The position numbers were made by a program, and so were the translations under genes. Shown piece by piece: positions 1-44,559 of a stretch of DNA of 64,000 nucleotides; within the stretch, counting starts at the first letter, position 1; each line of letters begins with the position of its first letter. Source of the DNA: a bacterium GBS-1 (GTDB lineage: Bacteria; Synergistota; GBS-1). The notes under the pieces were generated by a model. It was given only the letters and a program-made list of their open reading frames with translations, searched no databases and was not told the origin of the DNA. The stretch covers positions 1 through 64,000 of the forward strand of contig LEKQ01000015.1 in the NCBI GenBank assembly GCA_001443005.1. The letters are read 5' to 3'.

Positions 1-70
<70 letters not shown>

Positions 71-2905: not shown

Positions 2906-4246
2906 TTAAATTCCATAACCCTCAAGATCCAGTGATACCCTGCTAAAACCTATCCTTTTCAGTTCCCTGACAATGCCTTCATATATAGAGGGGTCCAGCG
3001 CTCTCTTAATCTCATCTTTCCCTAACTCCACTCTACAAAGGTCAGGCTGATCAACCCTAACCCTGACCACTTTAAACCCCAGGAGCTTAATATAGGCTTC
3101 TGCCTCTTCCACCTTCCTTAAGATAGAGTTTTCTAAGGAGATTCCCTTATGAAACCGGGTTGCAAGACATGTTCCAGAGGGCTGATTCCAAAAGGAAAGC
3201 CTAAAATGCCTCGACAACCTCCTTATCTCATCTTTGGTAAGCTTAACAACCTTAAGCGGAGAAAGCACGTTAAGCTCCTCAAGCGCTCTTAAACCTGGTC
3301 TATCTTCAGCCAAGTCAGAGAAATTGGTTCCATCTAAAACCACAGCTCCCTCCTCCTTGGCCCACTTAAGGAAAAGCTCATACATAGCTCTCTTACAGTG
3401 ATAACACCTTGAGGGAGAGTTACCCTTTACCTGATCTAAAGAGAGAAGGTCTAAATCAAGAGAAACCAAATCCACACCTAAGATTTCAGCAACCTTTCTA
3501 ACCCTGAGGCGCGCCTCCTCACTCACAAGTGGGGTGTCAGCGAAAAGGGCCCAGACCTTATTTGAAGACCTCTTAGCACAAAAAGTGAGAAAGGAACTAT
3601 CGACCCCTCCAGAAAGAGCAATCGCAACGCGATCAAAAGAACTAAGCAAATACTCAAGATGGATTAGCTTAACGAACTTGACAAGCTCCTTTAAAGCCTT
3701 TCCCCGATGGCTGACCGAAAGCTTCTCCTCTTTTGAGATTTCAGCAAAGGTCCGCCCAAGCGGGGGGTAAAGAAACACAGGATCGTAGCCAAAACCACCC
3801 TTTCCTCGGGGAGAATCTAATATATAACCTTCTACGCTACCCTCAGAAATATACTCTTCTTTAGAAGGCAAAGCCAAGACCATAACGCATCTAAAGCGCG
3901 CAACCCTTTTCTCTAAGGGAACACCGCTTAGCTCCCTTAAAAGTCTTCTTATTCTCTCTTCATCGGTTCTACCATAACGCGAAGAATATACTCCTGGAGC
4001 ACCACCTAGAGCCTCTACCTCGAGAGCGCTATCCTCCGCTATTACAGGAAGTCCAAGAGCCCTAGAGTAAGCCCTCGCCTTAATAAGAGCATTTCCTTTT
4101 ATAGTTTTGGCTTTTTCCTCAACCTCAGGTATATGTGAGAAATCCATCAGGGACAAGAACCTTACCTCATCAGATATCTCTCCCTCAAGGAAGGCCCTTA
4201 TCTCATTAAGCTTTCCCTCATTGGTAGTAGCTATCACTATTTTCAT
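2906..4246 (-). CDS. Fusion: RdgB-type dITP/XTP pyrophosphatase + LarE-type sulfur transferase
   Basis: A 446-aa two-domain protein. Residues 1-195 are an RdgB/HAM1 house-cleaning pyrophosphatase: [10 protein letters not shown] near 7, [13 protein letters not shown] near 70, and [10 protein letters not shown] and SVSHRGKAL near 150-185. Residues 200-446 are a LarE-like PP-loop enzyme: [10 protein letters not shown] near 208, then PSRCYHCKR and GTCLATRF. LarE supplies sulfur for the nickel-pincer cofactor of lactate racemase. Versions with three cysteines placed like these (C-x2-C plus C) are reported to bind a 4Fe-4S cluster, whereas the Lactiplantibacillus enzyme sacrifices a single cysteine. 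The start ATG overlaps the preceding stop (ATGA), so it is translationally coupled to the C1 operon. The domains are usually separate genes, and the sulfur acceptor here is unknown. Confidence 0.88.
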
Positions 4247-4773
4247 AGCCCTAATTCCCTCAACGCATCCTTAAGCTCCCTCAGAGAATAAGCTATTCGA
4301 ACCCCTTCCATCTCCTTAAGCTTAGATATATTATCTTCATCCACCTTACGCCTGTTAAGTGTTATTTTCTTACCCGAGGGAGAGAAGGAGATTAAACCCT
4401 CATCAACATCGGTTGGCAAAACTATGGAAGGTATGCCAGCTTTACCAGCTTGAGCGAAGATATTGGTTATAAGTGTATCTGCTATACCACAGACCATCTT
4501 AGCAACTGTATTTGACGTGGCCGGTGCCACAACCAAGACGGAATAAAGACCTGAATAGAAAAAACCACAGGAGGGAGAGCTAGCGCTTCTATCAAGGACC
4601 AGATTATAACCTTTCAGGGAATCCCAAAGTCTGTATATCTTAAGTACCTCCTCCCCCGCTTTAGAAAGAAAGATATCAATTCTTTCCTTAGGAATGGATA
4701 GTATTATATCGACGCACTCCCTCAAAAAGGCTCCCGCGCCAGTTATCCCCCAAGCCACCTTATCTTTACTCAT
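4243..4773 (-). CDS. Flavoprotein, dihydromethanopterin reductase-like (AfpA/DmrB/DmrX family)
   Basis: A 176-aa flavoprotein-fold protein. The N-terminus WGITGAGAFLRE and the SPSCGFFYSG and VAPATSNTVAKM segments match the archaeoflavoprotein/DmrB group, which binds FMN. Family members reduce dihydromethanopterin to tetrahydromethanopterin (H4MPT), the last step of cofactor synthesis. Position supports that role: the gene sits among H4MPT genes, overlapping the end of the DHPS-like gene by 8 nt and the start of the RdgB-LarE gene by 4 nt. A role as a general electron-transfer flavoprotein cannot be excluded. Confidence 0.78.
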   Translation of the reverse strand: MSKDKVAWGITGAGAFLRECVDIILSIPKERIDIFLSKAGEEVLKIYRLWDSLKGYNLVLDRSASSPSCGFFYSGLYSVLVVAPATSNTVAKMVCGIADTLITNIFAQAGKAGIPSIVLPTDVDEGLISFSPSGKKITLNRRKVDEDNISKLKEMEGVRIAYSLRELKDALRELGL

Positions 4774-6103
4774 CCAAGTTCATATACCCCCATCTTAAGG
4801 GCTGGTCCTGAACGTATCTTTTTCCTAAAGAGATCGCCAGCTTAGCTTTATAAAGCTCCCTCCCGATATAAAAGGCGTGGGAAGGGTCCTCCACACCCAT
4901 TTCGTCGAAGATCTCCTTTATATCCTTACCGACAATGAATTTATCCTTATTAAAAACACAGATTTCACCAGAAGTCAATGTGAATATTCTCCAGTTTTTA
5001 TCCCTTATCTCCTTACGCATAGCGTAAAGCTCATCCTTAGTAAAAGATTCGAAGGGAGAGTCTTTTAATATAACTAGAGAGTAATCTACATGCTTAGGAG
5101 GAAGCTTCTCCTTATGGGCAAAGTAGGAGATCCTTCGAGCGATATCTACTTCCTTAACACTATTCCAAGCCCAGCTTATAACCTCCGTTGTTAAAACATA
5201 ATCAACCCCTATCTCCTGAGCCATACATGTTAAGGCCATATTTATACCATGGCTGTCAGAATCTGTTAACTCGGTGAGATTCCCTATACCCATAAGCATG
5301 CTGACGCCTGGAAAGGCCTTTCTCGCATCCCTATATCTAACTAAAGATTCAACAAAGCCGACGTTAAAGGGCTCGATAATTGGATCTATTATGAAAGGCT
5401 TATCCCCCGCAAAGCTCAGGAAGATCTCCACATTCCTCTTAAGGGAGTCAAGCGTAAGATCATCAAAGTCAGGAACTATAACTGGACAGGCATTAAGATC
5501 TCTAGCCAGCCTCATATTATGACTATTCAAGCTCAACACATAGTCAACGCCAGCATCATCAGCCATCCTTATTGTTCTCTCATCAAAGCTATCTATGCTT
5601 ACAACATGCCCCTCCCTTTTTAGAGCTGAAACGACCTCTCTAACGCTTTCATAGGTCTCTCCAGGAATACAACCTAAGTCTATTATATCTCCACCACACT
5701 TGCGATAATATTCAGCCTTCTTTAATATCTCATCGAGAGAAAGTCTAGGAGCATCTACAATTTCAGCAAATATCTTTATGTTATATTCTCTTAGATCTCT
5801 TTTCCCCGGCTTCTTTCCGAGCAAGAAATCTGGAACATCCTTAAGATCTTGGGGTCCTTTTTGAACCTCGCAATTCCACTTCCTCTTTAGAGTATCGACA
5901 TCTACATTCTTACACATCCCTGATACGATAACCCTTGAAACATCAGCTTTTGGTAGATAGTTTCTGAGTATAAAGTCAGTGGTCATAAAAGCAGCTACTC
6001 CAATGTTAAGGGCAATAACCTCTACATCCTTAAACTCCTCAACAGCTCTACGAAGGGGTACCTCAGCTATTTTACCGGTTAAAAGAACCGTCTTACCCTT
6101 CAT
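4766..6103 (-). CDS. Dihydropteroate synthase-like protein of H4MPT biosynthesis (DUF6513 type)
   Basis: A 445-aa protein with an N-terminal Rossmann-like region (KTVLLTGKIAE, IVSGMCKNVDVDTL) followed by a TIM-barrel pterin-binding domain (GGDIIDLGCIPGET near 140, VVSIDSFDE, DPIIEPFNVGF, MGIGNLTELTDSDS). This matches the DHPS-like family that accompanies H4MPT genes in methanogens and methylotrophs and is presumed to act in pterin assembly. Its exact reaction is not established. ATG at 6103 is preferred over the in-frame TTG at 6118 because GGGG lies 9 nt upstream of the ATG. The stop overlaps the next gene. Confidence 0.83.
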   Translation of the reverse strand: MKGKTVLLTGKIAEVPLRRAVEEFKDVEVIALNIGVAAFMTTDFILRNYLPKADVSRVIVSGMCKNVDVDTLKRKWNCEVQKGPQDLKDVPDFLLGKKPGKRDLREYNIKIFAEIVDAPRLSLDEILKKAEYYRKCGGDIIDLGCIPGETYESVREVVSALKREGHVVSIDSFDERTIRMADDAGVDYVLSLNSHNMRLARDLNACPVIVPDFDDLTLDSLKRNVEIFLSFAGDKPFIIDPIIEPFNVGFVESLVRYRDARKAFPGVSMLMGIGNLTELTDSDSHGINMALTCMAQEIGVDYVLTTEVISWAWNSVKEVDIARRISYFAHKEKLPPKHVDYSLVILKDSPFESFTKDELYAMRKEIRDKNWRIFTLTSGEICVFNKDKFIVGKDIKEIFDEMGVEDPSHAFYIGRELYKAKLAISLGKRYVQDQPLRWGYMNLDE

Positions 6104-6107
6104 AAGT

Positions 6108-7013
6108 TTATACCCCAACCAACTCCTTAGCTAAGTCATAGGCCTCCTCGTGACCAAATACACCTTTCTTCGAGTTAATGGCTTTCTCAATGAGCTTTAG
6201 CTCTGCCTGGAGCTTAACGTTCCCAATGCTTAAAGGACCTATCCCATAGACTCCCGGAATTAACTCTTCGCTATCTGAATCCATTTTAAGCCCCTCAATA
6301 CCTAAGGGTGGAACAGCATTCACATCAGCTACAACCCTGCACTTATCAAGCTTCTTAAGTATCTCTAAGGGAAGCTTAATTACACCTGGAGCAGCGGTTG
6401 AAACTACAACGTCAGAGTCCTTACAAGCCTCATAGGTTTCTCCTTTATCTTCACTTATAGAACGAGGAACAAAGGCTGGTCTAACCCTTTCTTCACCTAT
6501 CTTTTCATTCACTTCCTTAGCGACCTTTTGAGCTGCTTCGACTCTAGAAGCACCAACCACCACCCTTGCACCATCCTTAGCGAACAATAAGGCAGCCCTC
6601 GACCCCACTGCTCCAGAACCTGCCAATATCGTGACAGTAATATCGGAAAGCGACTTATCTAATTTTTCCTTAACAGCCTTCGCTACTTTGGCAACCATAG
6701 CGGCAGATGTGGTGCAGGCCCCAGCAGGATCAAAGGCGATAGCGATCTCAAAGGGTGGAAACATCGCTCTTTTAGCTATATCTAAAACCTTCTCACACTT
6801 ATCCACATCCTTACCGCCTATGAATATAGTGGTATCGACTATTCCCTTAGGTCCACGGGGAAACATGGCATCCAAGACGAGATCCCTAACATCGTCAAGC
6901 TCCAATCCTCCACAGGGAACGACCGCGTCAGCTCCAGCATCGTATATCACCAAAACGTCAAAGGGGCTCGGATACTTATCTGTACTCAAGAAGAAAACCA
7001 CTTTTTTCCCCAC
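6108..7013 (-). CDS. mtdB: NAD(P)-dependent methylene-H4MPT dehydrogenase, MtdB type
   Basis: A 301-aa soluble oxidoreductase that interconverts methylene-H4MPT and methenyl-H4MPT using NAD(P). The N-terminus KKVVFFLSTDKYPSPFDV aligns with Methylobacterium MtdB. A Rossmann motif, ILAGSGAVGSRAALLFA, lies near residue 130, and the VVADVNAVPPLGIEGL and GVYGIGPLSIGNVKLQ segments are typical of the family. The start is taken as GTG at 7013, six bases after AAGGGGGTG. An earlier in-frame GTG at 7022 lies inside that ribosome-binding site. It differs from the F420-dependent Mtd of methanogens, so this step draws on pyridine nucleotides. Confidence 0.9.
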   Translation of the reverse strand: MGKKVVFFLSTDKYPSPFDVLVIYDAGADAVVPCGGLELDDVRDLVLDAMFPRGPKGIVDTTIFIGGKDVDKCEKVLDIAKRAMFPPFEIAIAFDPAGACTTSAAMVAKVAKAVKEKLDKSLSDITVTILAGSGAVGSRAALLFAKDGARVVVGASRVEAAQKVAKEVNEKIGEERVRPAFVPRSISEDKGETYEACKDSDVVVSTAAPGVIKLPLEILKKLDKCRVVADVNAVPPLGIEGLKMDSDSEELIPGVYGIGPLSIGNVKLQAELKLIEKAINSKKGVFGHEEAYDLAKELVGV

Positions 7014-7034
7014 TTTTAACACCCCCTTCTGAAT

Positions 7035-7949
7035 TTAGATCCTTTCCTTCTCTAACAAAAGATAAAGCATTAACCCTGATGTAATCAAATCAGCCGAAGT
7101 CCCGGGATTCCTTTTGACTTTACCTTCCCTTAACTCTAAATCAAAGAGCCTTATAGCCTCCCTACCCTCTGCAGTTTTAACTCCACCCAAGCTCAGGATG
7201 ATCTTAGCTCTCTCGCTAACCTTGATGGCCTCTTCCATACCATATTTTCTCGCTATGAGTGTATCAGGAACCTCAGCTAAAAGATCGAGATAAGCTTGGA
7301 CAATAGCATCTTCCCAGCTCATTCCTTCTCTTTTATAGGTTTTAAGACAAGGATAAACTATCTCGAAAGAGATCTTGTAATCGGAGGCATATTCATAAGC
7401 TATAGAATCCCTTTCGCTTGCTATTTCCATCGCTTCCTTCAGCGTTATATTAGGTTCCTCACTCACATCTGCTATGCTAGACCTACCTATACCGCCGGGT
7501 GAAACCATCCTTATGGCCTTATAAACCCATCTTGAATCCTCAACGGTCAAAGAGTCTAAAACACCCCTTAATGAAGAGCGAAACTCCTCAGAGTCTTTCC
7601 AGTAAGCTTTAGCGAGCGGGACAAGAAGTAGAGCTATCCCTAAATTAACGTTGGTTTTTACTGCCTCATATGTAGAGCTTATGATTCTATATATCAGCTC
7701 TCCAACCCCCAGCTTATCCAAATAAGTGTAAATAATGAAACCCAGATTAGAAGCAGCTATAAGGAAGTCCTCGTACCCCATTTCAGGGAATCTCTTGAAG
7801 GGATATACGTTACCCGGCTTGGGAGCGCTTACCTCAAGAAGACAAGCGAGTTGAGCCGCCTTAGCTATTAAGAGCTTATTCTCCTCTCCACACAGTCCAG
7901 AATAACATCTGCTATCCTCTTTTCTGTCACCGATTGCAATCCCCTCCAT
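7035..7949 (-). CDS. CitG-like (triphosphoribosyl-dephospho-CoA synthase family) protein of the H4MPT cluster
   Basis: Similar to the CitG/MdcB family, with LLEVSAPKPGNVYPFKRF near residue 38, VNLGIALLLVPLA, VSPGGIGRS, KRNPGTSADL and a mostly helical fold. CitG makes the citrate lyase prosthetic-group precursor, but a CitG-like protein also recurs in H4MPT gene clusters, where it is presumed to attach a phosphoribosyl group. No citrate lyase is present here. The only ATG (7949) forces an 82-nt overlap with the upstream ligase. A good Shine-Dalgarno, GGAGAGGAG, lies at the upstream stop, but no ATG, GTG or TTG follows it in frame before the conserved region, so the true start is uncertain. Confidence 0.75.
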   Translation of the reverse strand: MEGIAIGDRKEDSRCYSGLCGEENKLLIAKAAQLACLLEVSAPKPGNVYPFKRFPEMGYEDFLIAASNLGFIIYTYLDKLGVGELIYRIISSTYEAVKTNVNLGIALLLVPLAKAYWKDSEEFRSSLRGVLDSLTVEDSRWVYKAIRMVSPGGIGRSSIADVSEEPNITLKEAMEIASERDSIAYEYASDYKISFEIVYPCLKTYKREGMSWEDAIVQAYLDLLAEVPDTLIARKYGMEEAIKVSERAKIILSLGGVKTAEGREAIRLFDLELREGKVKRNPGTSADLITSGLMLYLLLEKERI

Positions 7950-8740
7950 CCAGGTATTCCATTAACCTCAAGGAGATACATCTCTCCTTTTTCAGAAAAA
8001 ACTATGTCTATACCCAAATAATCAGCCTTAAAGAGCTCAAAAACCCTCTTGCAGATCCTCTCCATTTCCTTGGGAACGTCGAAGGCCATAGGAACCGCTC
8101 CCTGATATATGTTGGTCTTCCAAAAACTACCCTTTCTAATCATAGCGGAAACTATCTCACCCCGGGCCATAAAAACCCTTATGTCCTCATCATTGTGAGG
8201 GATAAACTCCTGAAGATAAAAAACATATCTTCCAAGCTCAAGATACCTGAATATCCTGTGAGCCAAATCCTCATTATCTACCCTCATTATGCCCAAGCCG
8301 TTAGATCCAAATATGGGCTTAATAACCACATCCCCTCCAAGGAGTTTGTACCACCTTATAGCATCAGAAAAGCGCTCAACAACCGCCGTTTTAGGGGTTA
8401 AAATACCCTCTCTAGAAAGAAGCATAGAGGTGTAAAGCTTATCAACTGTCTTCTCTATAACAAATGAAGGGTTAATAACAGGCTTCCCCACCATCTCAAG
8501 TGCATAAAGAACATCAAGTCTAAAGATGATCTGCTCAAGGGAACCAATGGGTATTGACCTAACAAGATAGGCGTCATATCCGAGTAAATCGCTTTCCAAA
8601 CTATAAAACTCAAAGGATGGAAGAGATATAGAAAACGCCCTGGGAGATACAAAATCCACATGCCAGCCTCTTTTTAGAGCTGCGTCTTTAAGCTCCTCGC
8701 TCTGCCATCCCTTACCAGAACTAACTATCGCCAATCTCAT
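7868..8740 (-). CDS. RimK-like ATP-grasp ligase, probable H4MPT glutamate ligase-like
   Basis: A 290-aa ATP-grasp enzyme. The family features are an N-terminal pre-ATP-grasp fold (MRLAIVSSGKGWQSEEL), GDVVIKPIFGSNGLGI near 140, FYLQEFIPHNDEDIRVF near 180, and the metal-binding end LEVNGIPGWRGLQ. In methanogens the RimK-like MptN adds glutamate to H4MPT, and related ligases are part of methylotroph H4MPT clusters. The amino-acid substrate here is inferred from context only. ATG at 8740 is chosen over TTG at 8746. The gene overlaps mch by 20 nt and the CitG-like gene at its 3' end. Confidence 0.8.
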   Translation of the reverse strand: MRLAIVSSGKGWQSEELKDAALKRGWHVDFVSPRAFSISLPSFEFYSLESDLLGYDAYLVRSIPIGSLEQIIFRLDVLYALEMVGKPVINPSFVIEKTVDKLYTSMLLSREGILTPKTAVVERFSDAIRWYKLLGGDVVIKPIFGSNGLGIMRVDNEDLAHRIFRYLELGRYVFYLQEFIPHNDEDIRVFMARGEIVSAMIRKGSFWKTNIYQGAVPMAFDVPKEMERICKRVFELFKADYLGIDIVFSEKGEMYLLEVNGIPGWRGLQSVTEKRIADVILDCVERRISS

Positions 8741-9668
8741 AGCCAAAGGAAGCTCTTAGAAGCTCTAAATTAACTTTCCCCGCTTTAAAAGCCCTTCCAG
8801 TTAGTATGGAAACTATAGTAACCTCTGCTGGGCTAAAAAGCAACGGGTCCATATCATAAAACTTGTAGTTGCTTCTCTTAAAAAGCTCCAAGAAGGGTAG
8901 ACCATAACTTTCAGAGCTCGAAGAAGGAATCCTACTTATCAAATCAGAAAGATCACTATCATCACTTACAAAATAAAACGTACTACCACCATATATAACT
9001 GCATCGTTAGTCCTACCTATAGCTTCGAGATCATCCTTACCCAAGGGAGGTATAGGAGCCATTCCCATAGCCGAAACTAGTTTTCTTATATCATAGCCTA
9101 TCTCATGCATCTTATGAATCCCCGTTTCAACTACACGTGCAGTAACTTGAACCGCCCCAACAAGGCTTCCCGTAGGAGCAAAAACTATCCCTAATCTATC
9201 TGGAGGAAGTTCACAGCTCTCAGATATATAATCTACGACCTCTTCTGGAGGAAACCTACTAGTTTCAAGAAAAAGTACCCCTCTATCCTCCTTACTTTTC
9301 CAATTAAACTCCTCTATCAATGGCTCTTTGCTTCCCAAAAGCCTCGCTGGTCCAGAACCCATGGCGAAGAACTTCCCTATGGAGATGCTCCATCCTGCAT
9401 ATTGAGAAGCCATACAAGCGTAAAGAGGGTAATCCGTCATCACTTGAACATAGGGAACCCCACCTTGAAAAGTAATCCTAACATCACCAAGCCCAGAAAG
9501 AAGCATCCTTGAAACCAATAAACCAGCATTAAGAGAACCCAGACACTCAACCCCAGCATCTACGAGAATAGCCCCTCTTTGAGAGCGATGAACCCTTATT
9601 TTCAAGGCTTCGCTATTATCGATCATCTCCTGAAGGATCTCCCAAGCCTTTTCGTTTAATCTAAGCAT
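8721..9668 (-). CDS. mch: Methenyl-H4MPT cyclohydrolase
   Basis: A 315-aa cytoplasmic enzyme that interconverts formyl-H4MPT and methenyl-H4MPT. The sequence matches the Mch family along its length: SLNAGLLVSRMLLSGLG, PLYACMASQYAGW, FFAMGSGPARLL (the conserved GSGPAR), RLGIVFAPTGSLVG, and NDAVIYGGSTFYFV. Length is normal for the family (about 315-325 aa). It lies between subunit C of formylmethanofuran dehydrogenase and the RimK-like ligase, overlapping both, so it is part of the same transcript. It joins the Ftr product to the MtdB substrate. Confidence 0.96.
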   Translation of the reverse strand: MLRLNEKAWEILQEMIDNSEALKIRVHRSQRGAILVDAGVECLGSLNAGLLVSRMLLSGLGDVRITFQGGVPYVQVMTDYPLYACMASQYAGWSISIGKFFAMGSGPARLLGSKEPLIEEFNWKSKEDRGVLFLETSRFPPEEVVDYISESCELPPDRLGIVFAPTGSLVGAVQVTARVVETGIHKMHEIGYDIRKLVSAMGMAPIPPLGKDDLEAIGRTNDAVIYGGSTFYFVSDDSDLSDLISRIPSSSSESYGLPFLELFKRSNYKFYDMDPLLFSPAEVTIVSILTGRAFKAGKVNLELLRASFGYEIGDS

Positions 9669-10474
9669 ACTAAAATCTCCCCCTTACCAAGTTGAAGAAA
9701 GTCTCCCATATACCTCCTGAAGTACGATCCCCTTAGCTTATCTGGAAACTTTATTGGGAAATTTCTCTCAAGATAAGATATGTAGAAATCTACGAAATAA
9801 GGCCTAAACTCTCCACTATAGCGAAAGGATGGCAAAATGCTCGAGGGCTCTTCCAATAAGACTATCGTTCCTCTTTTCATCTCCGCTCCAGGAGCTTTTC
9901 CAACCTTACCCATGATGAACAACGTTCCAGCTATAACACCTGCCCCAGCGAAATCACCCGCATCCTTCATCACTACTATAGTTCCTCTCCTCATCCTTCT
10001 CCCGAGGTCATCGCCGACACTACCGTTTATGAGGACAACCCCTCCCGTTATTCCTCTTTTTTCCCCCCAATAAGAAGCACAGGCGAGGTTTCCCACGTTT
10101 CCATCCACATAGATTAAACCACCGGACATCCCCATAGCTAACCAGTCGGAAACGTTACCCTTTACAATCACCTTCCCTCCCCTAAGCCCCTCCGCAAGAT
10201 GCATTCCTACATCACCATGAATTTCCAGTACTCCCCAGGACATATCCTTTCCTATCCTCTTAACTTTACTAAGATCTCCTTCAATCAAGATCCTACCATC
10301 CTCTATAGAGCCCTCTATCTTAAAGAACTCTCCAAGCTCCATCTTATCCCTTCCATAAAAAACCGAAAGCTTAGAAATCCTGTCAACCGATCCAGCTTCA
10401 GCGAATTTATCTACGCTTATAACCTCTGCCTCAAGAGGCAAGAAAACTCTTTCCTTAAGCTGAAGAACTATCAT
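9656..10474 (-). CDS. fwdC: Formylmethanofuran dehydrogenase subunit C
   Basis: A 272-aa beta-helix protein built from repeated G-x-x-G-x-x-x-G turns (GGLIYVDGNVG, GGVVLINGSVG, AGAGVIAGTLFIMG), the hallmark of FwdC/FhcC and the related GltB C-terminal domain. In known structures this subunit scaffolds the A and B subunits. A C-terminal extension from about residue 200 (RPYFVDFYISYLERNF) resembles the subunit C tail. The start is one base after the Ftr stop, with the order D-B-A-Ftr-C. Confidence 0.92.
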   Translation of the reverse strand: MIVLQLKERVFLPLEAEVISVDKFAEAGSVDRISKLSVFYGRDKMELGEFFKIEGSIEDGRILIEGDLSKVKRIGKDMSWGVLEIHGDVGMHLAEGLRGGKVIVKGNVSDWLAMGMSGGLIYVDGNVGNLACASYWGEKRGITGGVVLINGSVGDDLGRRMRRGTIVVMKDAGDFAGAGVIAGTLFIMGKVGKAPGAEMKRGTIVLLEEPSSILPSFRYSGEFRPYFVDFYISYLERNFPIKFPDKLRGSYFRRYMGDFLQLGKGEILVCLD

Positions 10475-11368
10475 CTAAGACCCCTCCCAAAGTTCTCTAA
10501 GGTAGATGTTATACTGCCCAAGATTACCGCCATAGTTGCCAGCACTTATTTGAATAACGCCTTCAACCTCAACCGCTGCCTCAATAGCTAGACGCATAGC
10601 TTCTTTAACCGCCTCAAGACTAAATCCATCAAAAACTATTTCTAAAACAGACTTAACTCCTTTGGGAAGATCGCCAGAAGTATGTGCGCGAAGTTGCGGG
10701 ACAAAATCCGTATTGGTAGAAGCCTTAAGAAACTTATATTTAGATCCAACTTTGCTCCCACTCCTAACAATCCCACCAGGGAAAGGCAAGATTACATCTT
10801 TAACTTTCCTAGAAGCTTCAACGGCTTTTTCCGCAGCCCTAAGGACCGCATCAACGCTCTCTCCAAGGATCAATATATTACCCCCTCCTATCGCTTTCTT
10901 AACGCCATAACTCTCCTCCATAAGAAACTCCCCTTCCATAACGGGAATTCTCCAATATCTCTTACCGTCAAGCAATTTGCTCATCTGATAGCCATCACCA
11001 AAGAATCTTATAGACTTACCAATGGAGAGAACTTCTTCTGACTCAAGACCATTAAAACAAGCGGTGGTTGGACAAGTCAAAACACACTGACCTATTCTCC
11101 TTAAAAGCTGATCTTCGAGCCCCTTTCTCGACATGGCGAAGATGAGGACGCTAACCCCTGGCCTGCCATCAGGTGTTTCCTCAGGGGAAAGGGTTCTTTC
11201 TATCCCAGCCTCGCAACCACAGGCTATCACCGAAGTAGCAAAGCCTGTGAAAGATCGAGCCGATTCTAAAGCCCATTTTTCACTTACGGCCGTGATTATA
11301 ATCCTAGCCCCATACATCTTAAAGGCCTCAGCGAACGTGTCTTTAATCTTGTCCATCTTAAACGACAC
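10475..11368 (-). CDS. ftr: Formylmethanofuran:H4MPT formyltransferase (Ftr/FhcD)
   Basis: A 297-aa enzyme that moves the formyl group between methanofuran and H4MPT. Diagnostic segments are YGARIIITA, CGCEAGIERTLSPEETPDGR, RIGQCVLTCPTTACFNGL, RYWRIPVMEGEF and the C-terminal VIQISAGNYGGNLG. Length matches archaeal Ftr (about 297 aa). GTG at 11368 follows GGGAGG by 9 nt and overlaps the end of fwdA. Its place between subunits A and C resembles the fhc clusters of methylotrophs, where Ftr is stably bound to the A/B/C subunits. A similar complex is possible here. Confidence 0.96.
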   Translation of the reverse strand: MSFKMDKIKDTFAEAFKMYGARIIITAVSEKWALESARSFTGFATSVIACGCEAGIERTLSPEETPDGRPGVSVLIFAMSRKGLEDQLLRRIGQCVLTCPTTACFNGLESEEVLSIGKSIRFFGDGYQMSKLLDGKRYWRIPVMEGEFLMEESYGVKKAIGGGNILILGESVDAVLRAAEKAVEASRKVKDVILPFPGGIVRSGSKVGSKYKFLKASTNTDFVPQLRAHTSGDLPKGVKSVLEIVFDGFSLEAVKEAMRLAIEAAVEVEGVIQISAGNYGGNLGQYNIYLRELWEGS

Positions 11369-12995
11369 GCTTAACTACCTCCCTCTTGAAGTAGACATCT
11401 TCTACCTTATAATTGGAAAAAGTCACAGAGTAAAACTTATCAAATAGCTCACGAACTTCATTGCTTAGAGCGCTGTCATCAACGCCAGTATCTACTCTGA
11501 TTATTCTTCCTATATAACTTGCGTCTACTATCTCCCCATGCCTAACCACTACTCTTCCATCCTTAATCAGATATTCGACCCTCGACAGGGTCTCAGCCAC
11601 CGACCCCTTAGGCTTATATATAGCTATATCAGCGTCAGCTCCAGCTCCTAGATGCCCCTTCTCTTTCAAACCCAGAGCCTTAGCCGGAGCTGCACTGAGC
11701 ATAGTTATCATCTCATAAAGGGAGAACTCCCTATCGATATTATGAAGATAAATTCTCTTTTTAGCTTTAGGATGTATCTTCTCTATCATCTCTTTTCTAG
11801 CATCCGCGCTTGTGAGCCACTTTATAACTTCAGGGTAAAAGTAAAAGGGACCTCCGTTAGGATGATCAGTCGTGAGAAACACCCTCCATGGTCCCAAAAG
11901 CAAGGCTATTTCCAATCCTACAGCCCACTGAACGGAGTTAACAAGATTATCCATCCTATACCTGTATGGTACTATTCCAGATCCCGTTTCTAACTCCACA
12001 TCAGAGTTCGACCATCTACCCCCTGCTAGCTTATGAAGGGTAAACTCCCAGGGAGTGTCAGCGGTCATTGTAGTTGTATCCACAAAGATAACTTGCCCCA
12101 TATCAGCTGTGATGTTCTCATAATTCGATAGGGCCTCAACAACCTTAACTGACTCAGATCTAAAGGTGGCCCAGCTATCTCCTCCATAACAGAAATATTG
12201 AAGATGGGCCAAATGAAGCCTATTATCTTTAAAAGCATTTATGGTATCCAAGGCAGCCTTATAGCTTCCTGGAATGCCGATATTATAGGTATGAAGATGC
12301 ACAGGATGGGGCAATTTAAACTCGCAAGCGACCTCATTTAATATATCTACGACAACTTTAGGCTTTATGCCCCATATTGTATCATCAGATAGGGAGTTAA
12401 AGATCTTTCCCCATTTAAAGCTCTCGGTTCCTCCCGGGTTAACAACCTTTATGGCATACCCCCCAGCTGACTTAAGAAGCCATGCCGCGAAAAGTTTAGC
12501 ACTCTTCTTATCCCCCTTCTTAAGAAGATAGTAAAGAATGTTGTTGTTTCCCATAAGTATGTAAATACCCTTATCAAGAACAGGAGTATCCTCAAGCTCC
12601 TCTAAAGCATGCCTCGCCTTAAGCGGTGGAACCGCAGGATCCATGACGGTACCATACCCCAAGAGAAGATATCTGTAGGCTGTAACGAAGGTTGTAGGAA
12701 CTGAGAAGCCACATCCAGAGCGTAGCCCGTTTTTCCTCCTCAACGGGTCGCGAAGATGATCCTCGGGACGCATCAGACGAGCGCTGTTCACCTTAGGACC
12801 AGCGATATGACTGTGTATATCGACGTTGGCTGGCGCTACTATCATCCCAGTTACATCGATTACCTCGGCAGCTTCCTCACTGAGATCTTCAACTATCTTC
12901 CCATCCTTCACGTAAATATCCTTTATGCTTCCCTTAACACCGTTTAACGGGTCATAAACGATCCCGCCCTTTATAATCAGGGAATCATTAGGCAT
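11358..12995 (-). CDS. fwdA: Formylmethanofuran dehydrogenase subunit A (amidohydrolase)
   Basis: A 545-aa amidohydrolase-fold subunit that forms or hydrolyses the formyl-methanofuran amide at a binuclear metal site. Metal-binding segments are all visible: NVDIHSHIAG near residue 55, the probable carboxylated lysine in YAIKVVNPGG, HLHTYNIG, HLAHLQYFC and TTDHPNGGP. HSHIAGPKVNSARLMRPEDH is typical of FwdA/FhcA. The start overlaps the fwdB stop after GGGGGAAGAG. Both the CO2-reducing Fwd complex and the Fhc hydrolase complex use this subunit, so the direction is decided by subunits B and D. Confidence 0.95.
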   Translation of the reverse strand: MPNDSLIIKGGIVYDPLNGVKGSIKDIYVKDGKIVEDLSEEAAEVIDVTGMIVAPANVDIHSHIAGPKVNSARLMRPEDHLRDPLRRKNGLRSGCGFSVPTTFVTAYRYLLLGYGTVMDPAVPPLKARHALEELEDTPVLDKGIYILMGNNNILYYLLKKGDKKSAKLFAAWLLKSAGGYAIKVVNPGGTESFKWGKIFNSLSDDTIWGIKPKVVVDILNEVACEFKLPHPVHLHTYNIGIPGSYKAALDTINAFKDNRLHLAHLQYFCYGGDSWATFRSESVKVVEALSNYENITADMGQVIFVDTTTMTADTPWEFTLHKLAGGRWSNSDVELETGSGIVPYRYRMDNLVNSVQWAVGLEIALLLGPWRVFLTTDHPNGGPFYFYPEVIKWLTSADARKEMIEKIHPKAKKRIYLHNIDREFSLYEMITMLSAAPAKALGLKEKGHLGAGADADIAIYKPKGSVAETLSRVEYLIKDGRVVVRHGEIVDASYIGRIIRVDTGVDDSALSNEVRELFDKFYSVTFSNYKVEDVYFKREVVKRVV

Positions 12996-14268
12996 TTCTC
13001 TCTTCCCCCTTAATCTTGGCTATAATGCGGTCTAAAACCTCCTCATCAGATGGGTATATGGAATTCAAAATCTTCTTCACCCTAATAGGAACCCCATCCA
13101 TCCTATAAGCAGTTCCCTCCGTTTCTATCCCAACCTTAGCCGTAGGTATAACTACCTTAGCGACCATTGTAGTTAGGCTTCTTTTCGGATCTATAGCTAT
13201 TATTGGAAGACTGAGCAAGTTCCTAACGGCCTCCCGCGGAAAGTTAGCTACAGGATCAGAAGCTATAACCAAAACAGCATCTACTTCTTTCCTCCTTAAC
13301 AAATCAACAGCAGAGTATTCCCCGGGGCTATAACGAGGATATCCTAAGGAAAAGTTAACAGCCATAGGGAAGCCCGTTTGCCAAAGTAGGACCATTCCCG
13401 CTCCGCTAACATTGTAGTGCCCCCTCATCGCAACAACAGACCAACGAGTGTGAGAATTAAGCTCTATCGCTAGTGATAAAGCTGCTTCAACATTGTGGTA
13501 TTTACCCCTCGTCATCGTTAATCCCATACCTATGAATATAACTCCATACTTAGCGGAAAGCATGATATCAAGCAAACTTTTAAGAGTTTCAACCTTAACG
13601 CCGCCTACCTCTCCATCCAACTTGCCCCCTTTTAACATGTAACGCAGGGCATTTAAAACCTCGTAATCCTCTCCCGGTCTTACCTGTATGAATATATCCG
13701 CAGCCCTACTTGATGGGGTAGGCCTGACATCCACAACGACCAACTTCCTCCCTCTTCTTCCCTCGGTGACGAACATTCCCTTGGGAATTAGAGAGTACCT
13801 CTCATAGTGTCTTTGATGAGCCTCCAGCGGATTAGACCCCCAAAAAACAACCACATCAGCCCTGTTTTTAACCTCACCTAGGGTACAAGTTGGGATGCCT
13901 GTCTGATGAATAGCGAGTGAGGTTGGCCCATGGCAAATTGAGGTCGTTTGATCTATAGAAGCTCCGATTAAATCGGCTAACTCTAAAGCTTTCCTTTGAG
14001 CCTCAATGGACGTGGAGCTCAAACCATAGATAAGGACATGCTTTTTATCCCTTAGGATATTAACAGCTTCATTAATGGCCTCATCAATTGAAGTTTCTCT
14101 GCCATCTATCGAAGGGAGGGACAAATCTTCCCTATGTTTGAGAAAGAGAGACCTACCTATGCTACATGCTTTTTCTACGCCTTTTATAGCTCCATCCTCA
14201 ACGTAAACTATCACATCGTCACATAAGCAACCGCAAAAAGGGCATACAACATTCTCAACCTTCAACAC
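12988..14268 (-). CDS. fwdB: Formylmethanofuran dehydrogenase subunit B (Mo/W-bisPGD, 4Fe-4S)
   Basis: A 426-aa molybdopterin-oxidoreductase-family subunit that in archaea reduces CO2 to formate. C9, C12, C16 and C35 form the expected 4Fe-4S site (CPFCGCLCDD and KACSIG). C112 in SICHGPTS corresponds to the cysteine or selenocysteine that ligates Mo/W in archaeal FwdB. Further family segments are FWGSNPLEAHQRHYERYS, VVDVRPTPSSRAAD and MRGHYNVSGAG. Methylotroph FhcB is reported to lack the redox cofactors. Retention of the ligands here argues for an active redox enzyme, not a hydrolase partner. GTG start after AGAGGTG. It overlaps fwdD and fwdA. Confidence 0.95.
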   Translation of the reverse strand: MLKVENVVCPFCGCLCDDVIVYVEDGAIKGVEKACSIGRSLFLKHREDLSLPSIDGRETSIDEAINEAVNILRDKKHVLIYGLSSTSIEAQRKALELADLIGASIDQTTSICHGPTSLAIHQTGIPTCTLGEVKNRADVVVFWGSNPLEAHQRHYERYSLIPKGMFVTEGRRGRKLVVVDVRPTPSSRAADIFIQVRPGEDYEVLNALRYMLKGGKLDGEVGGVKVETLKSLLDIMLSAKYGVIFIGMGLTMTRGKYHNVEAALSLAIELNSHTRWSVVAMRGHYNVSGAGMVLLWQTGFPMAVNFSLGYPRYSPGEYSAVDLLRRKEVDAVLVIASDPVANFPREAVRNLLSLPIIAIDPKRSLTTMVAKVVIPTAKVGIETEGTAYRMDGVPIRVKKILNSIYPSDEEVLDRIIAKIKGEERNA

Positions 14269-14641
14269 TTTTCACCTCTTCTAGCACTCTCTTCCAATCC
14301 CATACTTCTTCACAGGCAGGGTAAATATAAAGTTTTATACCCTTAAGGTCCGGCATTCCCGTCCCATGAGTGTTAGCCGAGGTAAGCATGTTGGCCCATG
14401 GCCCATAGGGCATGAATGCCATACCCTTAGGAAGGTCACCTTTAACTGCCCTAACAACCACCTGTCCATAATCAGTTTTTAACAAAACGCTACTACCCTC
14501 GATAATCCCAAGCTCTTCCATATCTTCTCCATTAAGATAGACTATACCCACTTCATTTCTGTAAACTTCCGTGGTTTTTCCATCGTGAAGGGTTATCCCT
14601 TGCTTAATGGTTCTTCCCGTTATCAAGCAGAATTCTCTCAC
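14255..14641 (-). CDS. fwdD: Formylmethanofuran dehydrogenase subunit D (MGD-binding)
   Basis: A 128-aa protein with the small beta-barrel that caps the molybdopterin dinucleotide in the DMSO-reductase superfamily. Visible features are ITGRTIKQG at the N-terminus, YLNGEDMEELGIIEGSSVLLKT in the middle and FMPYGPWANMLT plus NTHGTGMPDLKG at the C-terminus, as in archaeal FwdD/FmdD. Aerobic methylotrophs lack this subunit. It starts with GTG at 14641, four bases into the end of the ATP-grasp gene, and overlaps fwdB by 14 nt, consistent with a D-B co-assembled catalytic pair. Confidence 0.92.
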   Translation of the reverse strand: MREFCLITGRTIKQGITLHDGKTTEVYRNEVGIVYLNGEDMEELGIIEGSSVLLKTDYGQVVVRAVKGDLPKGMAFMPYGPWANMLTSANTHGTGMPDLKGIKLYIYPACEEVWDWKRVLEEVKSVEG

Positions 14642-15714
14642 CCCTCTACCCCCCTCTCATAAAGCCACGCTTTTTCCTCCAAAAGCCCTCTTATAACCTC
14701 ATCCTCATCCTTTCCCTGAGAGTAGATCGAACACACAGGTCTACCCTTAGGAACTATCTCTTCCCTACGCGTTATATCTCTAAAACCCCTTTCCCACATC
14801 TCTTCACATTTAAACGCAGTGAGAGATCTCTCCGCATAAACTATTCCTTTTCCGTAATATCTTTCAGGAACGCTTATATTGATGACAGGAAGTTCTCCCC
14901 GACAAGCCAAAAGATGCATCTCCATGAGCTTGATATCATGGGCTCTCTCTAAAAGCTCCATCGATGCAGTATATCTGGGGTTTATCTCTATAATATAAGG
15001 CCCATCTTCTCCCAAGATTATATCCATACCATTAAGGCCTACTAGACCAGATTTTTCCACTATGCGTCCAACCCAATCTTCAATTCTATCCCTTAGACTT
15101 CCTTCTATCCTATAGGGATAGATGTTGCCACACCACTTAAAGTTATCTCCCCCAAGTTCCCTGAAGCCTATAAGCTGCCTTGTATAGCCTAAAGGAAGGA
15201 AGTCTTTTCCATTGGCTAAAAAGAGAAAAGATATACTCTTCCCCCTTACGAACTCCTGAAGGTAATAACCCCTTTTGACCTTCATACCCTTTCTCCAAAG
15301 GTATATATTTCTCCCCCCACCACTCTTAAAGGGTTTGATCAACCACTCAGATCCATCAGTCAAACCATCAAGCGAAAACCTTGGGATCCTCACACCTAAG
15401 CTTGTAGCTAAGCTCCACCAAGCTTTTCCAGGTCTAACAAGCTTTACAGCAGAAACCCCATTACCCAAGACTCTCTCTTGAACAGGCTTAAGTATATCCA
15501 AGTGGTTTTCAAGGATAGAAGAGTATATTATCCTCTCTTCGGAGTGAAAAAGAAGAATCTCCTTCAGCTCTTTCAAACTCCTAACAATCCTAACCCTATG
15601 AGTTAGCTTATACAAATCCCAATCTCCAAAAAAATCTATGGCTATTAAATCCTCAACACCTATCCTTTTAAGGGACTCTATTGTGGCTCTCACGCTGAAA
15701 CCTACTACTATCAT
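14638..15714 (-). CDS. ATP-grasp ligase, MfnD-like (methanofuran or pterin side chain)
   Basis: A 358-aa ATP-grasp protein: IVVGFSVRATIESLKRIG at the N-terminus, EWLIKPFKSGGGRNIYLW near 130, GYYLQEFVRGKSISFLF, and the metal site GPYIIEINPRYTASMELLE. ATP-grasp proteins of this kind recur in H4MPT/methanofuran gene sets, and one of them, MfnD, joins glutamate to tyramine in methanofuran synthesis. Assignment to MfnD is tentative. The start is placed at ATG 15714. The open frame extends upstream to 15765, but that stretch encodes the terminator hairpin palindrome and is unlikely to be coding. The ribosome-binding site is weak (AGGA two bases away). Confidence 0.75.
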   Translation of the reverse strand: MIVVGFSVRATIESLKRIGVEDLIAIDFFGDWDLYKLTHRVRIVRSLKELKEILLFHSEERIIYSSILENHLDILKPVQERVLGNGVSAVKLVRPGKAWWSLATSLGVRIPRFSLDGLTDGSEWLIKPFKSGGGRNIYLWRKGMKVKRGYYLQEFVRGKSISFLFLANGKDFLPLGYTRQLIGFRELGGDNFKWCGNIYPYRIEGSLRDRIEDWVGRIVEKSGLVGLNGMDIILGEDGPYIIEINPRYTASMELLERAHDIKLMEMHLLACRGELPVINISVPERYYGKGIVYAERSLTAFKCEEMWERGFRDITRREEIVPKGRPVCSIYSQGKDEDEVIRGLLEEKAWLYERGVEG

Positions 15715-15720
15715 GATCCT

Positions 15721-15756
15721 AAAATCTACCGCCGACCATCGATGGTCGGCGGTAGA
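15721..15756 (-). terminator. Leaky intrinsic terminator/attenuator (32-bp perfect palindrome)
   Basis: Positions 15725-15756 are a perfect 32-bp palindrome with the core GACCATCGATGGTC flanked by CTACCGCC and GGCGGTAG. On the minus strand it is followed immediately by TTTT. It lies 46 bp past the stop of the DUF2193-like gene and 7 bp before the next start codon. A strong stem with only four U residues suggests partial termination: high expression of the first gene and reduced read-through into the ligase and fwd genes. A protein-binding site is the alternative. Confidence 0.7.
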
Positions 15757-15802
15757 CCCCTCCATAACTATGAGATTTATCTCTCAGGTTAGAGACCTCT
15801 CC

Positions 15803-17323
15803 TTACACAGCTACATCCCACTGGCAGTATCCTTTAGCTCCCTTGCCTTCACCAGTAACATAAGGAACGTTTCTCTTAATTAGCATCGTGGTAGCGCAGT
15901 TCTTACATCCTCTAACTGGCGAAGGAACCTTGGAAGGATTAAGAGCAATTATGTTAGTCATTATCGTAGCTGTTACAACCTCAGGTGTCAAGTAGCATGG
16001 GAAGTCTGCCAACTTCATAAGCGCAGCGAAGCGCTGAGTTATAGCACAACCAGGATAGGTGTAACGCTGCGGATTGGATATAACATCGTTCTTGTCAATG
16101 GGACTAAGATCAACCTCAACACCTCTTATCTTACCGCCACTACCCTTTGGTTCGACATCAAGTATGCTCTCGCCTCTGACAAGCATGTCTAAGAAGTCAG
16201 CGTTGTGAAGCTCGTCAGCCTCACCGCGCTTCGGGTTCATAGCAGCATAGTTATAGAACCTCTTAACCAACAGGTCAACGACCATCGGCACCGTGAAGGC
16301 ATCCTTCCAGAGTATGTAAACTGTGGCACACGCCGTCGAGCCCGTTGCTATAGCCAACACATCCCACTCACTCTTAATGGCATCCTTCTCAAGGGCTCTG
16401 TAAAGCGTGTTCTCCATAACTTGCGTAACGGACTCATATATGGCAAAAGCCACATCATCCTTGAACATGTTGTAAGCAGACTGAGCTATATGGTGACCCA
16501 CATCGCCAACGCAGTAAGCGGGAACCACAACGATATTACCAGGATGAACGCCAGCCTTAAGCGCCGCCTCAACATATGGTCTCATGCGCTCCTTGTACTC
16601 CTTCATGTACTTGCGGACATCAAAAGACTTATGGCCTATGGATTCCATAAGTTTAGCTTGGGCCTCAACGGGCTCACGGTAAATGAACTGAAGTTGCTCA
16701 ACTTCCGCTTGTTCGGCCTCAGCCAACGTCTTTCCACTCTCGACAGCAGCGCGAAAAGCAGCACCTAAGCCGTAGGAAGTATTCATACCCCACGATTTGG
16801 AAGCCAGTATCGTCTTCTTGTGATCCTTGGGGATATCAAGGTTCTGGAGAATTCTATTAACCACGTTGGGAACGGAACCAACAGACATCGCGAAGTCAAC
16901 CACGCAGGTGAGACCGTACATTCCACCATACCTTCTTGCCGCCTCACGACCGATCAGAGCCTTGTTTTCTGCTATAGCATCAATGAACTTCCACATTGAC
17001 TTCTTAAACTCAGGATCCAACTCATAGAGTATCTCAAGTATAGGCGGCGTCTGATAGTGCTCAACGAAGGGATCATCCTCTGGCCGGATATAATCGGTTA
17101 GGCTCTTTAAGATCTCATAGTGAGCGTTAACCGACTGAACATGAAGGTCTATAACCTCCTTCTTCTGCCCATCAGCTGGCTTCATAGTGTTAACAGCATC
17201 AACATAGGGCTTGCAATCGGTCAGCTTAAACTGCGTTCCCCTCTTCTCCTTAATTACACCTAGCACTGCTTTCGCTGCCCCTACGGTCTCGTCAATCATC
17301 TTCCTGTAAAGCTCCTTACTCAT
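15803..17323 (-). CDS. DUF2193-like protein, head of the C1 operon
   Basis: A 506-aa soluble protein of unknown function. From memory, the pattern of motifs matches DUF2193, a family known mainly from methanogens: EHYQTPPILEILYE near 88, REAARRYGG, SWGMNTSYGLG near 180, GNIVVVPAYCVGDVGHH near 265, ELHNADFLDML and the cysteine pair CKNCAT near 470. Conserved Cys/His clusters suggest metal or cofactor binding, but no catalytic residue is known. ATG follows a strong AAGGGGGGGTGG site and an extended -10 promoter. With the downstream attenuator this suggests high expression. It is probably an unrecognised component of methanofuran/H4MPT C1 metabolism, which is an inference from context. Confidence 0.72.
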   Translation of the reverse strand: MSKELYRKMIDETVGAAKAVLGVIKEKRGTQFKLTDCKPYVDAVNTMKPADGQKKEVIDLHVQSVNAHYEILKSLTDYIRPEDDPFVEHYQTPPILEILYELDPEFKKSMWKFIDAIAENKALIGREAARRYGGMYGLTCVVDFAMSVGSVPNVVNRILQNLDIPKDHKKTILASKSWGMNTSYGLGAAFRAAVESGKTLAEAEQAEVEQLQFIYREPVEAQAKLMESIGHKSFDVRKYMKEYKERMRPYVEAALKAGVHPGNIVVVPAYCVGDVGHHIAQSAYNMFKDDVAFAIYESVTQVMENTLYRALEKDAIKSEWDVLAIATGSTACATVYILWKDAFTVPMVVDLLVKRFYNYAAMNPKRGEADELHNADFLDMLVRGESILDVEPKGSGGKIRGVEVDLSPIDKNDVISNPQRYTYPGCAITQRFAALMKLADFPCYLTPEVVTATIMTNIIALNPSKVPSPVRGCKNCATTMLIKRNVPYVTGEGKGAKGYCQWDVAV

Positions 17324-20351: not shown

Positions 20352-21293
20352 CTAACTCATCTCCCTTCCGCGAGGGCTTGCGCTCGTTAGCCAGCTTCTA
20401 CCTCGAATGTTATTTGATAGCATAAACGCGTCAACTTCCCTCTTCAGCTTCGCAGCCTGCTCTCCATCTTCGACCAAGCAATAAACGACGGGACCCCACG
20501 AACTTTGACCGGCTCCGTAGGCTCCTTCCTTAAGCATAAAACTTACTAGCCTTTCACAGATCTCGTGAGCGAAAATCCCACCCTGGGATGGCGCAAACAT
20601 CTCTCCAACCTTTCTCTGGATCAAGGTCAAGTAGTTGCCAAAGAGCTTTATATCTCTCTCAATAAGCGAGGGCAAAAGCCCCATAAGAATGAGATAGGAT
20701 ATCTCAAAAACGTTGACATCTCTGATATTCTTAAGTTTTTCCTCCTCTAAATCGCCATGAACATTAAGATCAACCTCAGGAAGAACAACAAGAAACAACC
20801 AGTCTCGAGGGAAATCGAGTCTAAATAACGTGAGAGGATAATCATCTCTCCCTACCCTCTTACCTACATCAAGGACAAAACCCCCATCAAAATAGGCAGA
20901 TATCCCTATACCCGATCTCTTGCCTCTACCGCTAAGCTTCACCACGTCTTCCCTATCGTAAGGAAATCCCGAGATCTTTAAAATTGCTTCACTTATCGCC
21001 AACGAAAGCTGCGTCCCTGATCCTAATCCCTTATGCAAGGGTATAGAGGAAAGGATTCTCACGTGAAGAGAAATCCTTCTGCCCAAAATCTCTTCAGCTT
21101 TATCAACTATCCTCCTTATCTTCTCAGAAACCTCAGAAGTTCCACCCTCGACAACTAAATCGGAACTTTCATCAACATCTATAATCCAGGATGGAAAGTT
21201 GATAGCAACACCTATGCTTCCGTAAGCTCTCCCAAATTTTCCGAAGGGATCAATGAACCCAAGATGAAGTCTTGCGGGCGTCTGGATCCTCAT
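20352..21293 (-). CDS. mptG: Beta-ribofuranosylaminobenzene 5'-phosphate synthase
   Basis: A 313-aa GHMP-kinase-fold enzyme that couples PRPP with p-hydroxybenzoate or p-aminobenzoate in the first committed step joining the arylamine to the H4MPT precursor. Family features are MRIQTPARLHLGFIDPFG, GIPLHK-like SIPLHKGLGSGTQLSLAIS near 85, GRGKRSGIGISAYFDGGFVLD near 120, and GAYGAGQSSWGPVVY near 265. It confirms that the organism builds H4MPT itself. Its stop lies a few bases before the regulator gene and its start overlaps the DUF447 stop by 4 nt. Confidence 0.93.
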   Translation of the reverse strand: MRIQTPARLHLGFIDPFGKFGRAYGSIGVAINFPSWIIDVDESSDLVVEGGTSEVSEKIRRIVDKAEEILGRRISLHVRILSSIPLHKGLGSGTQLSLAISEAILKISGFPYDREDVVKLSGRGKRSGIGISAYFDGGFVLDVGKRVGRDDYPLTLFRLDFPRDWLFLVVLPEVDLNVHGDLEEEKLKNIRDVNVFEISYLILMGLLPSLIERDIKLFGNYLTLIQRKVGEMFAPSQGGIFAHEICERLVSFMLKEGAYGAGQSSWGPVVYCLVEDGEQAAKLKREVDAFMLSNNIRGRSWLTSASPRGREMS

Positions 21294-44167: not shown

Positions 44168-44176
44168 AGCCCAGAT

Positions 44177-44557: not shown

Positions 44558-44559
44558 AT

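Follow-up and report, generated by a model that had tools for sequence, protein, structure and literature searches.

A predicted redox-type formylmethanofuran dehydrogenase operon headed by a DUF2193 gene in a GBS-1 bacterium of the Synergistota

The DNA analysed here, a stretch of 64,000 nucleotides from an anaerobic GBS-1 bacterium (Synergistota; contig LEKQ01000015.1) referred to below as the window, carries an operon predicted to encode FwdABCD, a bacterial formylmethanofuran dehydrogenase that is complete and of the redox type, and not the hydrolytic Fhc complex. This assignment is supported by the retention of the FwdB cysteines and of the FwdA metal ligands and by a genuine FwdD subunit. 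What is new here is the link between the DUF2193 family and the Fwd operon, which is found in GBS-1 and in many of its relatives.

Results

The genes for FwdC, Ftr, FwdA, FwdB and FwdD occupy positions 9656-14641 of the minus strand, as the earlier note had placed them, and all genes given below with a family match lie on the same strand. Five NCBIfam equivalog models were matched above their cut-offs, namely those of FwdB, the catalytic W/Mo subunit with predicted [4Fe-4S] cysteines and C112 ligand (12988-14268; TIGR03129, 543 bits, cut-off 327.8), FwdA, the dinuclear-metal amidohydrolase subunit (11358-12995; TIGR03121, 667 bits, cut-off 392.75; 5t5i_A, 1e-145), the formylmethanofuran:H4MPT formyltransferase Ftr (10475-11368; TIGR03119, 446 bits, cut-off 292.6), FwdC (9656-10474; TIGR03122, 240 bits, cut-off 130.65) and the methenyl-H4MPT cyclohydrolase Mch (8721-9668; TIGR03120, 373 bits, cut-off 228.8). 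The presence of FwdD, the MGD-binding subunit (14255-14641), was confirmed by PF01568 (4.5e-18, over the cut-off) and by the PDB entries 2ki8 (1.9e-29) and 5t5i_D (4e-24); its match to NF042908 (2e-34) lies under the "exception" cut-off of that model.

The operon comprises 15 closely spaced genes, methanopterin genes among them, and extends at both ends beyond the part recognised earlier. Past Mch it continues to position 2151, and its upstream start consists of a DUF2193 gene and an ATP-grasp gene. The latter (14638-15765; PF02655, 4e-26) overlaps FwdD by 4 nt, has a counterpart at this position in the Fwd operons of other bacteria and possibly encodes an MfnD-like methanofuran glutamate ligase. 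The first gene of the operon encodes a DUF2193 protein of 506 aa (15803-17323; PF09959, 2e-241); it is separated by 37 nt from the next gene and has 209 nt free upstream, where no Rfam match was found. When the region was scanned for promoters and terminators, the results were no stronger than with shuffled sequences.

Beside Mch are encoded an MptN-like RimK-family glutamate ligase (7868-8746; NF040720 MptN, 1.6e-69, under the equivalog cut-off), a CitG-like protein of bacterial H4MPT clusters, which is a conserved neighbour (7035-7949; PF01874, 2.5e-66), an NAD(P)-dependent methylene-H4MPT dehydrogenase of the MtdB type (6108-7022; PF09176, 6.7e-27; PDB 6tge, 1e-42, and 1lu9, 2e-42), a DUF6513/dihydropteroate-synthase-like protein of the methanopterin cluster (4766-6118; PF20123, PF14251; TIGR00284, 3.5e-56) and a flavoprotein, likewise a conserved neighbour, which may be dihydromethanopterin-reductase-like (4243-4773; PF02441, 4.9e-18). 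The window also contains the beta-RFAP synthase of a methanopterin-specific biosynthetic step (20352-21293; TIGR00144, 169.8 bits, cut-off 113.5), a DUF447 protein of methanopterin clusters (21290-21847; PF04289, PF20766) and a MobA-like nucleotidyltransferase (21834-22412; PF12804; MobA model, 2e-24, under its cut-off), possibly the enzyme that makes the guanine dinucleotide cofactor. The H4MPT steps from CO2 to methylene-H4MPT are all encoded (Fwd, Ftr, Mch and MtdB), and the family and PDB matches of Mch and MtdB support the connection to methylene-H4MPT and NAD(P)H that had been proposed.

The cysteines of FwdB are at positions 9, 12, 14, 16, 35, 112 and 128, and thus include all those named earlier, with C112 standing in the motif SICHGP (residues 110-115). 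In an alignment of bacterial FwdB that includes the window, C9, C12, C16 and C35 occur in 30 of 30 rows and C112 in 29. The protein aligns over its full length to the solved archaeal FwdB (5t5i_B, 1e-130; 8rja_B, 8e-133). In FwdA the metal ligands H61, H63, K183, H233/H235, H264 and D377 are conserved, the residues of a dinuclear metal site with a carboxylated lysine. As all active-site residues tested in FwdA and FwdB are kept and FwdD is present, the description of the complex as redox-competent-looking is supported.

Among 80 loci scanned for ferredoxin-motif ORFs around FwdB, none was found within 5 kb in any bacterial locus, the window included, the closest in bacterial loci being 5.3 kb off; this agrees with the earlier remark that no ferredoxin is seen nearby. 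The polyferredoxin genes FwdF/G are absent beside FwdB in the window and in all bacterial loci examined. A linked polyferredoxin FwdF/G is common in Fwd/Fmd, not universal, and since many archaeal FwdB likewise have no adjoining FwdF/G, this linkage is not a strict requirement.

No PF03598 match, expected of CdhC/ACS, was found in the genome, which is 98.5% complete, and a Wood-Ljungdahl pathway was for this reason rejected for GBS-1. Of the archaeal-type methyl branch of that pathway suggested in the earlier note, the steps to methylene-H4MPT stand and the pathway itself does not. The search for CODH/ACS genes that it advised returned a lone CooS, accompanied by NADH/Fe-S module genes, and no ACS.

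The same genome has formyl-H4F synthetase (FTHFS) and MetFV. The hydrogenase sought is present as an Mbh-type [NiFe] enzyme in an Mrp-Mbh cluster, the large subunit of which carries both terminal CxxC motifs (CGIC and DPCMSC) and has P. furiosus MBH as its best PDB match (6cfw_L, 2e-114); no FeFe hydrogenase was found in the genome. A formate dehydrogenase, also among the genes to be sought, was not recognised there, just one other molybdopterin enzyme being present, far under the Fdh cut-off. Ferredoxin-type genes are numerous elsewhere in the genome. Glycine cleavage genes (43109-47359), presumably of an H4F-linked system, occur along with butyrate kinase, peptidase-type and ethanolamine genes, and the lineage is apparently fermentative.

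DUF2193 is the most conserved gene of the operon. Genomes of the phylum that carry it have a true FwdB in 18 of 20 cases, against 4 of the 168 other genomes (Fisher test, 2e-19 when genomes are counted, 4e-6 when genera are), and the two genes lie 1.6-2.6 kb apart in 15 of the 17 genomes having both on one contig. In 11 loci, from Bacteria and Archaea, an aquaporin gene is located directly downstream of DUF2193 on the same strand, with a gap of 49-267 nt; none adjoins it in the window, in Synergistota or in Chloroflexota. Certain Fwd-bearing bacteria are devoid of DUF2193. Sequence searches of the PDB gave no match, a fold search with two DUF2193 models (pLDDT 79-80) gave nothing better than E 0.2, and no DUF2193 was found on the plasmids searched. 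The literature search on DUF2193 yielded a single proteomics paper, in which the protein was more abundant in Methanococcus voltae on pyrite and was read as iron-sulfur related (PMC9431491).

Discussion

The direction of the Fwd pathway is not fixed by anything in the sequence. On balance we lean towards an interconversion of methylene-H4MPT and CO2 by FwdABCD together with Ftr, Mch and MtdB that runs mostly as an oxidation, with electrons passing via ferredoxin to Mbh; this is supported by the lack of ACS and of FeFe hydrogenase, by the finding of just one other molybdopterin enzyme and by the presence of Mbh, ferredoxin-type genes and fermentation genes. Against it speak the lack of a linked ferredoxin or FwdF/G gene, the failure to find Fae in Synergistota and a glycine cleavage system presumably tied to H4F. 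MtdB would oxidise methylene-H4MPT, yielding NAD(P)H, and Mch and then Ftr would deliver formyl-methanofuran, which FwdA would hydrolyse to formate for oxidation to CO2 by FwdB/D. By way of the FwdB cluster the low-potential electrons would reach a soluble ferredoxin, and its re-oxidation by the Mbh-type hydrogenase would give H2 and ion pumping. We infer that DUF2193 belongs to the same pathway.

All these enzymes are reversible in archaea, and FwdABCD might instead reduce CO2 with ferredoxin from CooS or H2, the H4MPT branch then supplying methylene for biosynthesis without acetyl-CoA synthesis. The CooS and its module genes are in keeping with such a role, as is the lack of a recognised formate dehydrogenase to supply FTHFS. 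However, C1 units on H4F are already obtainable from glycine cleavage and FTHFS, and no enzyme was identified for C1 transfer from H4MPT to H4F, and the reductive direction seems to us rather unlikely. Far less probable is an action like that of the methylotroph Fhc, in which free formate would be released from formyl-H4MPT through hydrolysis by FwdA and Ftr, with FwdB/D redox-silent. Apart from subunit D the gene set is the same, and FwdA keeps the hydrolase residues; but Fhc is defined by the lack of D and by a B subunit without cofactor residues, whereas here FwdD is present and conserved and FwdB retains the [4Fe-4S] cysteines and C112. Moreover, the Fhc B subunit 6s6y_B aligns to FwdB only from residue 55 onward, outside the [4Fe-4S] domain, and leaves residues 1-54 uncovered.

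A further reading makes DUF2193 define the physiology: a small neutral C1 compound, entering via aquaporin in many relatives, would be converted by DUF2193 and so put onto H4MPT, with Fwd as terminal oxidation. It refines the oxidative explanation and does not exclude it. The co-occurrence and close spacing with FwdB, the aquaporin pairing in two domains of life, the top conservation in the operon and the failure to find Fae in Synergistota speak in its favour. The aquaporin missing beside DUF2193 in the window and in two phyla, the bacteria with Fwd alone, the iron-sulfur interpretation and a fold search without any match bearing on chemistry speak against it, and we hold it as a doubtful possibility. 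Since the phylum yielded no Fae, one may speculate that DUF2193 is a candidate C1-entry enzyme. The fuller proposal, held slightly more tentatively still, is that of an unrecognised enzyme, lacking any solved relative, that loads the compound onto tetrahydromethanopterin in place of Fae and feeds a ferredoxin-linked Fwd oxidation common to anaerobic bacteria and methanogens, with aquaporin import in many organisms. Methanogens and anaerobic bacteria share this unannotated family, and its linkage with aquaporin and H4MPT offers a concrete starting point for tests of the family and of how C1 reaches H4MPT in the absence of Fae.

This one genome shows that acetyl-CoA synthase can be missing where a bacterium has a redox-type Fwd and all of the branch leading from CO2 to methylene-H4MPT; bacterial FwdABCD should therefore not be taken as a sign of autotrophy.

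Comparison with known systems

The novelty implied by the earlier note was not borne out, since FwdDBAC operons from bacteria, and bacterial FwdB with the Cys ligand, were already published (PMC7325909, PMC6025917, PMC10100899). A survey from 2023 included 149 FwdB of bacteria. The operon is not new in kind, and its gene order is already present in actinobacteria: the fwdDBA-ftr-fwdC operon of the Hakuba actinobacteria SAG S47 has these five genes identically arranged, a FwdB with the [4Fe-4S] domain and the Cys118 equivalent, and no FwdE/F/G (PMC7325909). In those actinobacteria, however, the Wood-Ljungdahl pathway is encoded and methanopterin genes were not observed, whereas GBS-1 has H4MPT genes and no ACS. 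Acetomicrobium hydrogeniformans, a cultured member of the same phylum for which Fwd, Mch and Ftr genes have been published (PMC6025917), likewise has FwdD, B and A in this order, clustered with MtdB, DUF2193 and H4MPT genes. There, Ftr and FwdC are encoded away from FwdDBA, and FwdB is only 57% identical to the GBS-1 protein and not sister to it in the tree. Fhc (6s6y) has homologous A, B and C subunits, Ftr and a methanopterin gene cluster, but it is without a D subunit and its B subunit is without the cofactor domain. From archaeal W-Fwd (5t5i and relatives) GBS-1 differs in having no FwdF/G polyferredoxin genes nearby, while FwdA, B, C and D are all homologous and the catalytic residues are kept.

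The Fwd operon and its gene products

The formylmethanofuran dehydrogenase (Fwd) and Ftr genes all lie where the earlier note had placed them, on the minus strand, as established by gene coordinates, family models and PDB matches. FwdC (9656-10474), Ftr (10475-11368), FwdA (11358-12995), FwdB (12988-14268) and likewise Mch score well over the curated cut-offs of NCBIfam equivalog models, and FwdD (14255-14641) exceeds that of PF01568 and matches the solved FwdD chains 2ki8 (1.9e-29) and 5t5i_D (4e-24); chance is excluded by a wide margin for all six family matches. Consecutive genes are separated by -82 to +37 nt in the order DUF2193 (15803-17323), ATP-grasp, FwdD, FwdB, FwdA, Ftr, FwdC, Mch, MptN-like ligase, CitG-like, MtdB-like dehydrogenase (assigned from PF09176 and PDB 6tge/1lu9), DUF6513 pterin-binding protein, flavoprotein, XTPase-LarE-like fusion and flavin reductase-rubredoxin fusion (2151-2897). 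The free space upstream of DUF2193 is 209 nt, and genes for beta-RFAP synthase, a DUF447 protein and a MobA-like protein are found upstream at 20352-22412. The XTPase-LarE-like fusion close to the operon end (2906-4246) unites two domains in a single protein, Ham1/XTP-pyrophosphatase and LarE/ThiI-like sulfurtransferase. Elsewhere, a defence-like cluster at 51326-56628 combines a type IV restriction enzyme of the Mrr type with a PbeC/DndD-like ATPase and a helicase that resembles PbeA except that the N-terminal third of the model is missing.

The cysteines C9, C12, C16 and C35 of FwdB, and C112 within SICHGP (110-115), are present as claimed; Cys also occupies positions 14 and 128, and the alignment with archaeal FwdB structures spans the full length. 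The 30 bacterial FwdB rows compared, of which one is the window and some are near-identical, all keep the four cluster Cys, and 29 keep C112; the sole exception is an Arg in Desulfosporosinus SbF1 (L060 264-1535), where the cluster Cys are retained. FwdA keeps H61, H63, K183, H233/H235, H264 and D377, aligned with the metal-site residues of 5t5i_A. Because these FwdB and FwdA residues are retained, the encoded protein set looks redox-competent.

Comparison of 80 loci showed Fwd genes mostly beside MtdB, Mch, MptN and methanopterin genes in Synergistota, Chloroflexota, Actinomycetota, Desulfobacterota-type and Bacillota loci; none of the archaeal loci compared had an MtdB match. In a FwdB tree built by a quick method, without an outgroup or true FhcB rows, all 30 bacterial rows fell on the same side of one branch (SH-aLRT 93). 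The window and its three closest relatives formed a separate deep branch, away from other Synergistota. The tree agrees with the published view of an archaeal origin of FwdB and transfer to Bacteria (PMC10100899).

The DUF2193 protein

DUF2193 was found in 20 and true FwdB (over cut-off) in 22 of 188 phylum genomes, both in 18; Fisher's test gave 2e-19 when genomes were counted and 4e-6 when genera were, the latter being safer as related genomes are non-independent. Of the 17 genomes in which the two genes share a contig, 15 have a spacing of 1.6-2.6 kb. No other cluster gene is as conserved as DUF2193 (median identity to the window 73% in 16 bacterial loci; Ftr 57%, FwdB 53%, MtdB 35%). Among Fwd genomes tested individually it occurred in 3/8 bacterial and 3/12 archaeal ones.

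At loci confined to lineages outside Synergistota and Chloroflexota, an aquaporin (major-intrinsic-protein) gene follows 3' of DUF2193 on the same strand, with a gap of 49-267 nt. The pairing (loci L023, L033, L049, L070, L075, L101-L106) occurs in Bacteria (Actinomycetota, Syntrophobacteraceae, Peptococcaceae, Formimonas, Desulfosporosinus, Gracilibacter, Solidesulfovibrio, Dethiosulfatarculus) and Archaea (two Methanothrix-type archaea, Methanocalculus). The Solidesulfovibrio order is flavoprotein pair, DUF2193, aquaporin, MtdB, the pair apparently resembling ferredoxin:NADP oxidoreductase.

The predicted structure is mostly helical (pLDDT 79-80), many His, Asp, Glu and Cys are invariant, and neither sequence nor fold search matched the PDB. 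The sole paper found reports that Methanococcus voltae contained more of the protein on pyrite, and suggests iron-sulfur binding (PMC9431491). The C1-entry enzyme Fae was detected in 0/188 phylum genomes, two archaeal controls being positive in the same search. From its genomic context alone, DUF2193 is a candidate for an enzyme that feeds C1 units into H4MPT.

Genome context and pathway direction

The window belongs to contig 14 of a 1.81 Mb genome (98.5% complete), whose closest named relative is 'bacterium 42_11' (FwdB identity 84%); a further genome of its phylum, G014, shares an identical FwdB with Acetomicrobium hydrogeniformans (L018), which identifies the phylum as Synergistota. The contig opens inside a bacterial 16S rRNA gene, of which positions 1-69 (minus strand) carry the 5' end; the assembly thus breaks within an rRNA operon.

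The archaeal-type methyl branch of the Wood-Ljungdahl pathway proposed in the earlier note is unsupported by this genome context, which includes no CdhC/ACS match. No FeFe hydrogenase was matched in the genome either; FTHFS is present in one copy, MetF and a MetV-like partner lie just outside the window, and the one other molybdopterin enzyme scores far under the Fdh cut-off. A lone CODH of the CooS type, grouped with genes resembling CooC, NuoE/F and ferredoxin (contig 5, 1741-8029), is possibly, in this ACS-lacking genome, a CO-to-NAD/ferredoxin module. An Mrp-Mbh energy-converting [NiFe] hydrogenase cluster (contig 1, 403750-411758; L132 5751-13759) encodes a large subunit with all four Cys ligands (CGIC and DPCMSC), best matching P. 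furiosus MBH. An ethanolamine-utilisation microcompartment operon also lies on contig 1 (376423-391979). The CO2/formyl-MFR potential is very low. Since the gene set is fermentative, the most economical model is an oxidative role, in which Fwd would run oxidatively and electrons would leave via ferredoxin to H2.

Comparison with known systems

Fwd A-E, Mch and Ftr were already reported in A. hydrogeniformans (PMC6025917), and a 2023 survey counted 149 bacterial FwdB separately from 94 FhcB (PMC10100899). A bacterial redox-type Fwd operon is thus already known, and DUF2193 is its unexplored partner gene. The Fhc B subunit 6s6y_B aligns with the window FwdB from residue 55, leaving out the N-terminal cluster domain, whereas the window FwdB has that domain. 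The order fwdDBA-ftr-fwdC, without fwdE/F/G, is that of the Hakuba actinobacteria, for which the same residue argument was made (PMC7325909).
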